Origin: Alphaproteobacteria bacterium
Lineage (GTDB): Bacteria; Pseudomonadota; Alphaproteobacteria; Rhodobacterales; Rhodobacteraceae
Direction: 5' to 3'
NCBI GenBank assembly: GCA_009908505.1
Contig: JAAAPD010000039.1
Coordinates: 1 to 64,000, forward strand
Length of the DNA stretch: 64,000 nt
The notes under the pieces are model-generated. The model was not told where the DNA came from and did no database searches. It saw nothing but the letters and a program-made list of their open reading frames with translations. Both the position numbers and the translations under genes were made by a program. Numbering within the stretch: the stretch's first letter is position 1; each line of letters begins with the position of its first letter. Positions 2,077 to 5,019 of the stretch are shown here, in pieces.

Positions 2077-2157
2077 ATGTAGTAATTTTTTCTTTGGCGA
2101 TCCCCTGATCTTGTGTTTTCCTGACCTCAGGCGAAATCAATGAAAGGAGGTGATCCA

Positions 2158-2214
2158 GTGTCTAGAAAGAGATTGGAGAGAGGTGTCGGGACAGCTTGGA
2201 GGTTTGACATCTGA
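2158..2214 (+). CDS. Putative 18-residue leader peptide with a very strong ribosome binding site
   Basis: GTG at 2158 opens the frame MSRKRLERGVGTAWRFDI and stops at 2212-2214. AAGGAGG lies 7 bases upstream, within a 17-base match to the 16S rRNA 3' end, which is the best ribosome binding site in the window. An in-frame ATG at 2140 would instead give 24 residues (MKGGDP at the N-terminus), but then the SD match would lie inside the coding region. The peptide is basic and amphipathic with no domain I recognise. Downstream hairpins and a terminator suggest an attenuation-type leader or a genuine micropeptide gene. Not proven to be translated. Confidence 0.45.
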   Translation: MSRKRLERGVGTAWRFDI

Positions 2215-2303
2215 GGCAGCCCTTGGGTGTGCAAACCTTCAGGTGGGCCGGTTATCACCAACGTGTGAGAGCAGTCTAACCGACCCCACCTCCTGAACTT
2301 TCG

Positions 2304-2335
2304 AAGGGCCGTTCCATCGCCGGAGCGGCCCTTTT
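2304..2335 (+). terminator. Rho-independent terminator
   Basis: AAGGGCCG at 2304-2311 pairs with CGGCCCTT at 2326-2333, an inner TCC/GGA extends the stem, and TTTT follows at 2332-2335. It closes the 2140-2335 unit about 40 bases before arfB. Confidence 0.75.
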
Positions 2336-3897: not shown

Positions 3898-4632
3898 TCA
3901 GATGAGTAGGACTGCAATCAATATAGCAAGGGCACCAAACCGGAGCAGCGTCGGAAGGAACAGGATTACCCTAGGCGGCTTGTGAACCCTTGCGCCCATA
4001 ACAGGCCCTCCGCGGAGGACTGGAAGAATCCATTCCGCAAAATGCGGTCGCTTTGTGGCGCCAAAATGATTTAGCAAGAAGTACCTGTCGGTGATTGGCG
4101 AGTTCCCAAATCCAACAACACCGGTGTGCCCGAACGTTCTGGGTCGGATGCTAGCCAACATGATCGGCCAAAGATCACACACTCCACAGTCGTTTACTAG
4201 ATTGGCTGCGCAATTTTTTAGTTTGCGATCATCATCGTGGTGGCAAATTGAACCTGAAAAGAAGACCCAGTCGAACTTGCCCTTGATGTCATCAGATAGT
4301 GAAGCAAAAACTTTTGTTCCGTTACTATGGCAGATAATTGAGTACGAGTCGGCATCAGATGCGTCAAATGCATCTTGCACTCGAGCTTCCGTAAGAGTGG
4401 AGCGCTTTTTTGAGCCCAAACCTGCCACTAGGTCAAGTGGCGTCATTAGAGCGTAACTGACGGGCACATATCCAAACTCAATGTCAGCAAACTTGCCGTC
4501 CGTAACGTGCGAGAAATCATCCCACCAGTCCGAGATTGATAGGATCCCGTGCAGCACAAAGACTTCATGTCGAACCGCGTCAATAACAGATACATCTTCG
4601 ACTTCAAATGGTGCAGGAGTGACTGGGATCAT
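3898..4632 (-). CDS. Alpha/beta-hydrolase-like protein with C-terminal membrane anchor
   Basis: Predicted 244-residue protein, not assigned to a named family. VFVLHGI (residues 24-30) resembles the oxyanion-hole HG motif and SIICHSNGT (98-106) a nucleophile elbow with S103. D152 and H169 or H189 could complete a triad. A hydrophobic helix at 222-244 would anchor it to the membrane. The base composition is visibly AT-richer than in flanking genes, suggesting transfer. A 13-bp inverted repeat sits 3 bases before the ATG and no Shine-Dalgarno sequence is visible, so expression may be controlled there. The upstream 4711-5019 gene is in the same direction. A lipase or esterase role is only inference. 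Confidence 0.6.
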   Translation of the reverse strand: MIPVTPAPFEVEDVSVIDAVRHEVFVLHGILSISDWWDDFSHVTDGKFADIEFGYVPVSYALMTPLDLVAGLGSKKRSTLTEARVQDAFDASDADSYSIICHSNGTKVFASLSDDIKGKFDWVFFSGSICHHDDDRKLKNCAANLVNDCGVCDLWPIMLASIRPRTFGHTGVVGFGNSPITDRYFLLNHFGATKRPHFAEWILPVLRGGPVMGARVHKPPRVILFLPTLLRFGALAILIAVLLI

Positions 4633-4710: not shown

Positions 4711-5019
4711 TTAGACTGCAATCTTCTTTTCTATTGCAGCCCGACTGACAGACCCGCGGTGTGATTCCTGGATGTCCTTCGTTAGGTTTGATAGCTGCTG
4801 CACATTTTGCAGAGCGGGCAACTGAAGATAGTACTTCTCGTCGGTAGAGTTCCCTTGAGAGAACACATCTCTGCCAACCTGTTTCTCCCTAACCATCCAC
4901 TCGAGCGCCGCAAACGCGTTGCCAAACAACTCCTTCTTTGTCTGGAAGTCGCATACATCCATCATGTGGTTAAGCCGCGCAGCTTCCTTAGCCGACAATT
5001 CAATTTGAATTCGTGCCAT
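4711..5019 (-). CDS. Small protein, possible ribbon-helix-helix DNA binder
   Basis: Predicted 102-residue protein. The N-terminus MARIQIELSAKEAARLNHMM followed by a helix through TKKELFGNAFAALEWMV is the strand-helix-helix pattern of ribbon-helix-helix regulators such as many antitoxins; the C-terminal half (residues 55-102) is polar and unassigned. GAGGAGCAATC-type spacing gives a usable ribosome site before the ATG at 5019. It is AT-rich like its neighbour and could regulate the pair through the inverted repeat at 4635-4664. Function is inferred from pattern only. Confidence 0.5.
   Translation of the reverse strand: MARIQIELSAKEAARLNHMMDVCDFQTKKELFGNAFAALEWMVREKQVGRDVFSQGNSTDEKYYLQLPALQNVQQLSNLTKDIQESHRGSVSRAAIEKKIAV

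Follow-up and report, generated by a model that had tools for sequence, protein, structure and literature searches.

The window, a 64,000-nt stretch of a Rhodobacteraceae contig, carries a short unit between a Vut_1/YhhQ-type transporter gene and arfB. The parts named in an initial annotation of this DNA (a 17-mer matching the 16S rRNA 3' end, a GTG-initiated ORF for an 18-residue peptide, the segments AGGTGGG at 2241-2247 and CACCTCCT at 2287-2294, a terminator and arfB) are all in place. Two things had escaped that annotation: the relation of the unit to the Rfam family RF01867 (CC2171), and a covarying hairpin around the stop codon. The unit and its neighbours include the following features.

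1438-2076, + strand: Vut_1/YhhQ-type transporter gene (Pfam PF02592), upstream in 98/109 Rhodobacteraceae
2094-2122, + strand: promoter-like site with TTGGCG (2094-2099) and TTTCCT (2117-2122), 17 apart, suggested by the TTGAC position in relatives and weak in the window itself
2142-2158, + strand: 17-nt complement of the 16S rRNA 3' end, GAAAGGAGGTGATCCAG, an extended Shine-Dalgarno (SD) sequence, by direct match
2146-2152, + strand: SD core GGAGGTG, putative closed-state partner of 2287-2293, with 7/7 pairs in 93/105 relatives and in the closed fold of the window
2154-2177, + strand: putative start-codon hairpin, 2154-2158 with 2173-2177 (codons 6-7), with 5/5 pairs in 95/109 Rhodobacteraceae
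2158-2214, + strand: micro-ORF of 18 codons for the peptide VSRKRLERGVGTAWRFDI, GTG at 2158-2160 and stop codon TGA at 2212-2214; start, frame and stop are kept in relatives
2165-2169, + strand: P1 5' strand (codons 3-4), putative open-state partner of 2298-2302, from in-register covariation; an unregistered energy test was negative
2185-2189, + strand: P3 5' strand GTCGG (codons 10-11), putative partner CCGAC at 2280-2284, with modest support from pairing counts
2194-2244, + strand: stop-codon hairpin, predicted arms 2194-2216 and 2221-2244, CAGC loop at 2217-2220, 5' arm containing the stop codon, from the window fold and covariation near the loop
2287-2293, + strand: putative internal anti-SD CACCTCC, from the 7/7 pairing test in relatives
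2298-2302, + strand: P1 3' strand CTTTC, preceding the terminator, from in-register covariation
2306-2335, + strand: intrinsic terminator hairpin and T-run, from the sequence and the end-to-end RF01867 alignment
2379-2801, + strand: arfB (RF-1 domain, Pfam PF00472), downstream in 91/109 Rhodobacteraceae

The two flanking genes are nearly constant neighbours in Rhodobacteraceae. TTGAC is located at -51 to -46 before the element in 68/109 members and anywhere in -80 to -1 in 72/109, compared with 22/108 for a control window. This position is consistent with a promoter belonging to the unit itself, and transcription would start near 2130. In the adjoining region further on in the window, two minus-strand ORFs (3898-4632, 244 aa; 4711-5019, 102 aa) have no Pfam match.

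As judged by alignment, the unit is a relative of a Caulobacter sRNA that is filed without a function, and so is not an orphan. Using cmscan, positions 2134-2332 align end to end with RF01867 (model positions 1-159 of 159; 46 bits, E 1.2e-8), and the 5' block is identical over 22 nt. The Rfam consensus includes the same 5' GAAAGGAGGUGAUCCAGUGUCU, and the homology extends from this block to the 3' terminator. The score is lower than the gathering cut-off of 75 bits, which is reached in 0/198 same-family genomes; the unit is therefore termed related to RF01867 rather than a filed member. RF01867-like matches (E <= 0.001) are present in 160/198 same-family genomes, one per genome except for two genomes with two, and in 85/385 genomes drawn from the class, and among 14 named control genomes RF01867 is matched by Caulobacter vibrioides alone. 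The sequence AAGGAGGTGATCCNDTGTC is found in 62/398 genomes drawn from the phylum, all of which are labelled as the same class or the same family; none of those labelled only as the same phylum has it. Plasmids searched by BLASTN yielded no match.

CC2171 is said to originate from work by Landt in 2008. The RNA group is thus already known as RF01867, where it is filed as Gene; sRNA, a non-coding type. A CC2171 homologue has been predicted in Mesorhizobium huakuii (PMC5596092), and in the available portions of two reports CC2171 appears only in tables (PMC11701678; PMC5596092). Ninety-four new CDS have been described in Caulobacter, and the main text, as available in part, does not name CC2171 (PMC4117421). 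No account of a CC2171 ORF or 16S complement was found in the literature searched, and an earlier mention is possible. On sequence comparison, the apparently new features are a 15-nt complement of the 16S tail, selected translation, a covarying stop-codon hairpin and a family-level anti-SD.

The 17-mer at 2142-2158 is complementary to the 16S 3' end at 17/17 positions. The 16S 3' end was not found in the window's own assembly, in which this locus is the sole exact 17-mer; 13 further sites are present at 3 mismatches, compared with 6 for the reversed control. Genomes L298 (same genus) and L302 (same family) have 16S 3' ends with the sequence ..GCGGCTGGATCACCTCCTTTCT.., and a same-genus and a same-family 16S gene terminate in ..CTGGATCACCTCCTTTCT. 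Because these ends fit the 17-mer, the match holds, and the initial annotation was right to regard it as real. The length of 17 nt applies to the window; at class level, a block of 15 nt is conserved.

This limit is seen in 66 class-level loci outside Rhodobacteraceae (70 minus four that lacked a good element or were duplicates; in one of the 66, the 50 codons read contain no stop). Positions 3-11 and 14 are invariant, there is A (55) or G (11) at position 12, either of which can pair with U, C occupies position 15 in 59/66, and position 16 is free; as the loci were retrieved by a model or motif that includes the block, this constancy is inflated. The free base is followed by ATG (36), GTG (25) or TTG (5), and CTG occurs in 0/66 loci; the free position 16 and the lack of CTG are less easily explained by such selection of loci. 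By these comparisons, the conserved block outside Rhodobacteraceae is a 15-nt complement of the single-stranded 16S tail, which we take to start after helix 45, and it ends where the tail does. Within Rhodobacteraceae, all 15 bases pair in 92/109 members when G.U is allowed, and all are Watson-Crick pairs in 60/109. A C at position 12 in 8/109 members breaks a 16S pair and gains a pair with codon 7 in the start-codon hairpin, suggesting that part of the extended match may serve intramolecular pairing.

Similar elements are present in other contexts. In L008 and L080, an identical 18-nt element lies immediately before an apparently ordinary protein gene of greater length, with no stop in its first 50 codons, suggesting that a perfect SD is not confined to CC2171-like RNAs. 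Exact AAAGGAGGTGATCCAGTG followed by ORFs of 11-16 codons was also seen in non-Alphaproteobacteria: Lujinxingiaceae and Myxococcales MAGs (L090, L103), Planctomycetota-type MAGs (L061, L064, L070, L121, L160), and L132 and L069. None of these loci matches an Rfam family. A script found a terminator in L064, L070, L103, L132 and L160 and weakly in L121, and none in L061, L069 and L090. L090 and L103 are 71% identical over 196 aligned columns downstream. Two gammaproteobacterial copies, in SAR92 (L108) and Cellvibrionales (L139), carry GTGTC and, about 40-60 nt further on, a GGGAGCC..GGCTCCC hairpin with a T-run; they have 32 nt in common at 90.6% and possibly represent a minimal version of the CC2171-like RNA. 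Copies of Bradyrhizobium, Methylobacterium and Brevundimonas type occur on IMG/VR contigs filed as viral (L374, L375, L376, L377, L379), and in L378, also from IMG/VR, the motif is present with no stop within the 50 codons read.

The micro-ORF was compared among 109 Rhodobacteraceae sequences, including the window, which with few exceptions are the best-scoring matches of the 160 matched genomes; they derive from 110 RF01867-like matches (30 loci given and 80 fetched), of which L242 was dropped before counting as it had no recognisable element. Codon 19 is a stop in 100/109 (TGA 48, TAG 38, TAA 14, TGG 0), and an in-frame stop within codons 2-18 occurs in 1/109, compared with 43/109 in each of the other frames. 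A tree was constructed from 85 YhhQ+ArfB pairs (43/82 internal nodes with support of at least 0.8), from which the 24/109 members without YhhQ or ArfB are absent. On its 81 tips with a stop, the four of 85 without one at codon 19 being left out, parsimony gives 27 switches of stop type among TGA, TAG and TAA, never via TGG, with 21 steps at the second base and 22 at the third; over the whole tree, the stop at codon 19 is lost 4 times. Codon 2 shows 39 third-base steps versus 4 and 4 at bases one and two. By this comparison, the 18-codon ORF is selected for translation in Rhodobacteraceae: start, frame and stop are all under selection, and the RNA may be a dual-function sRNA whose ORF is translated.

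The peptide itself behaves differently from its boundaries. Within Rhodobacteraceae, S2, L6, E7, G9, V10, G11 and T12 are conserved, and synonymous third-base steps at codons 6, 7 and 12 number 0, 1 and 2 on the tree; such near-static third bases suggest that RNA pairing may be what holds the peptide core. At codons 13-18, amino acids vary freely and pairing covaries. Many Hyphomicrobiales encode VSHC..TWI.AS peptides, mostly of 22-26 aa, Bradyrhizobium encodes VSxxKRCHLAGIAR (14 aa) with all three stop types in use, and other families encode M-S-S or M-S-H peptides. Beyond M-S, the peptides are unlike between families, and start and stop are retained, suggesting that what is conserved is the act of translation, and not necessarily the peptide.

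RNA structure persists, on computed folds, while the peptides differ between families: whole-RNA folding compared with shuffles gives a mean z of -3.52 for the 109 Rhodobacteraceae and -3.64 for 144 other loci, the terminator being included in both values. The consensus that RNAalifold gave for a MAFFT alignment of 101/109 sequences (length filter) was gappy and uninformative, and helices were therefore tested in register. The best-supported structural element on these tests is a CARN-loop hairpin with the stop codon in its 5' arm. Its frame is matched by 86/109 Rhodobacteraceae, in which the third to ninth pairs counted from the loop covary. Bases 1 and 2 of codon 18 are paired in 67/86 and 68/86 members, versus 37.6 and 42.9 after shuffling, and the third stop base is paired in 70/86 versus 56.9; 0/2000 shuffles attained the observed value in each case. 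GCARYC near the stop was rejected as a class-wide motif, being present in 87/109 Rhodobacteraceae and in only 16/141 others (shuffled 0).

Two further helices would join the ORF to the 3' region. In P1, base 1 of codon 4 is paired with the pre-terminator segment in 96/99 members (expected 73.8) and base 2 in 75/99 (expected 52.1), each with 0/2000 shuffles, and base 3 is paired weakly (62/99 versus 56.7 expected, 28/2000); 10/109 members without an anchor were dropped. On the tree, base 1 and its partner change in 12 and 14 steps, respectively, with 16 joint steps. These step counts weigh more than the shuffle counts because shuffles leave relatedness in. An unregistered swap test of P1 duplex energy was negative (170/200 permutations reached the own value). 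P3, between codons 10-11 and TAACCGAC, is paired in 418/460 cells versus 400.3 expected from column make-up, and in at most 241/460 cells when slid by 1-2; 16/109 members were dropped for want of an anchor and one more is absent from the pair counts (92). These counts give modest support for P3 pairing.

The initial annotation had proposed a switch between open and closed states, in which the anti-SD segment pairs with the SD or, instead, with AGGTGGG. The AGGTGGG:CCCACCT hairpin is possible in the sequence, and yet in the minimum-energy fold computed for the window SD:CACCUCCU pairing takes its place. In Rhodobacteraceae, a pre-terminator C-R-Y-C-U-C-C is complementary to GGAGGUG at 7/7 positions in 93/105 members (4/109 have no delimited 3' region), versus 21.6% of shuffled 3' regions, of which 93.5% give 6 or more pairs. 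The two bases before CUCC are Y in 96/98 and R in 93/98, and thus compatible with the SD by wobble. As the SD is invariant, the anti-SD side supplies only wobble-compatible changes, and compensatory change of both sides cannot be demonstrated; of the conservation proposed as a check on the switch, the pair itself is kept. Overall, the open-type P1 covaries, P3 does so modestly, and the closed pair is conserved with a non-varying SD side. These observations are compatible with two competing states in Rhodobacteraceae, and a possible switch would be limited to that family.

In computed energy, the closed fold lies below the element-unpaired fold in 93/93 members with the 7/7 anti-SD, and the SD:anti-SD pairing probability exceeds 0.5 in 83/105, with a value of 0.17 in L023. 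Freeing the element costs a computed median of 9.0 kcal/mol (105 members), and the duplex with the 16S tail gives a median of -32.2 kcal/mol versus -11.8 for an AGGAGG control, suggesting that a usual SD could barely open the RNA and that the extended SD can. Outside Rhodobacteraceae, tail-to-RNA complementarity is weak (mean z -0.60, n=144; -1.43 for Bradyrhizobium-type copies, n=11), suggesting that anti-SD gating is not class-wide and that closure would be a family-level elaboration, while the 16S complement and the ORF persist. The CARN stop hairpin and the internal anti-SD are supported for Rhodobacteraceae only. A class-wide internal 16S mimic, suggested by eye from CCTGGATCnTCGCCTC in Hyphomicrobiales, was rejected, as its duplex is near the shuffled level (VSHC group mean z -0.35, n=53).

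These comparisons show conservation of the 16S complement together with the start, frame and stop of the ORF, and in Rhodobacteraceae also of the stop-codon hairpin, P1 pairing and the internal anti-SD. We give a probability of about 0.5 to the reading that the unit specifies a ribosome-gated, translation-licensed regulatory or dual-function RNA, whose conserved function is the act of translation and not the peptide. An autonomous CC2171-related gene would produce a structured, translated RNA of about 200 nt, with the complement of the entire 16S tail near its 5' end, immediately ahead of the start codon of the micro-ORF. In Rhodobacteraceae, the free RNA would be closed, with the SD on the internal anti-SD and the start codon in a hairpin. 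A 30S subunit might then open it, since about 15 base pairs would be stronger than the closure; a usual 6-nt SD would barely suffice. The ribosome would pass the throw-away ORF and stop inside the hairpin, melting the stop hairpin together with the ORF:3' pairings, and thereby the 3' anti-SD segment would be freed and the fold changed. A bolder and clearly more tentative version is that this is a new kind of RNA, which offers the complete complement of the single-stranded 16S tail, is opened by a 30S subunit whose tail is free, and is refolded by a single ribosome passage, so that it reports free-30S or initiation capacity. The translation-licensed principle may reach beyond Alphaproteobacteria, as loci that share this 5' layout and show RNA-like traits are present in Planctomycetota, Myxococcales-type and Cellvibrionales genomes.

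The unit might instead be a small mRNA for a functional micropeptide, with the long SD ensuring strong translation and the structure regulating or stabilising the message. The seven residues kept within Rhodobacteraceae and the almost purely synonymous change at codon 2 (39 third-base against 4 amino-acid steps) are what this would predict. The divergence beyond M-S among families, the freely varying amino acids at codons 13-18, whose pairing covaries, and the third bases of codons 6, 7 and 12, which behave as RNA constraint predicts, make it a rather unlikely explanation. A trans-acting RNA, as the initial annotation also suggested, would capture 30S subunits by their 16S tail or block the SD sites of mRNAs with CACCUCC. 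For such an RNA a 15-17 nt complement whose duplex is predicted at -32 kcal/mol would be well suited, as would the anti-SD segment conserved in Rhodobacteraceae; a decoy, however, has no need of a selected start codon, frame and stop codon, and the anti-SD segment is not class-wide. These points argue against a pure decoy, and we regard action in trans as improbable.

Control of read-through into arfB by attenuation is more doubtful still, although same-strand arfB follows in 91/109 Rhodobacteraceae. The gap from terminator to arfB has a median of 50 nt (n=87), and arfB may thus lack room for its own promoter and may depend on read-through in this family. Elsewhere the downstream gene is not conserved: within the flanks examined, arfB is beside 0/144 other loci, whose downstream gene is on the same strand in 75, on the opposite strand in 63 and not found in 6. 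A general arfB leader was therefore rejected, and the position before arfB that the initial annotation pointed out applies to Rhodobacteraceae and not to the class. No conserved antiterminator is evident by eye; a CNGGCCC:GGGCCG candidate, judged by eye only, was dropped. As the 17-mer is the reverse complement of a 16S end, chance similarity or a leftover piece of 16S rDNA might also be considered, but the 16S match ends at the element, the ORF, hairpins and synteny recur in relatives, and exact AAAGGAGGTGNTYYNDTGTC is present in 149/198 same-family genomes (reversed control 0), leaving this explanation next to no credence.

On these comparisons, a family that is filed as non-coding and has lacked an explanation is conserved as a translatable message across the sampled Alphaproteobacteria, and it offers a concrete way into the question of how free ribosomes might be sensed by cells. 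It also serves as a warning that ribosomes may read conserved 'sRNAs' whose SDs are very strong. Mutations of the start, the stop, the SD length and the hairpin would separate the roles of translation, peptide and RNA.

The closest known system is RF01867 CC2171 of Caulobacter, with which the unit shares an end-to-end alignment, the 5' block, the 3' terminator and occurrence as a single copy in nearly all genomes. The unit differs from it in score (46 versus 75 bits), in the sequence of the internal helices and in its conserved ORF, the family being filed as non-coding. To our knowledge, the 16S complement conserved here is longer than in any other small RNA. Type I toxin messages, such as hok and aapA1, close their SD by 5'-3' pairing. 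Similarly, a 3' segment near the terminator is predicted here to close the SD of the micro-ORF; unlike those toxins, the peptides are charged and not membrane-like by eye, and the gene is single-copy and widespread in the class. Unusually long pairing at the start codon is also seen in the extended SD-anti-SD initiation of Staphylococcus aureus (PMC13009471) and of Flavobacteriales rpsU (PMC9976891). Those sites belong to ordinary messages or leader ORFs, whereas here the site would lie in a stand-alone structured RNA with its own terminator and 15 conserved bases complementary to 16S. Small RNAs with an ORF of 14-18 codons include the dual-function rnTrpL/peTrpL of Sinorhizobium (PMC10117765) and Spot 42; compared with these, whose peptides or RNAs have assigned roles, the SD of the present RNA is extended and, by prediction, self-closed.
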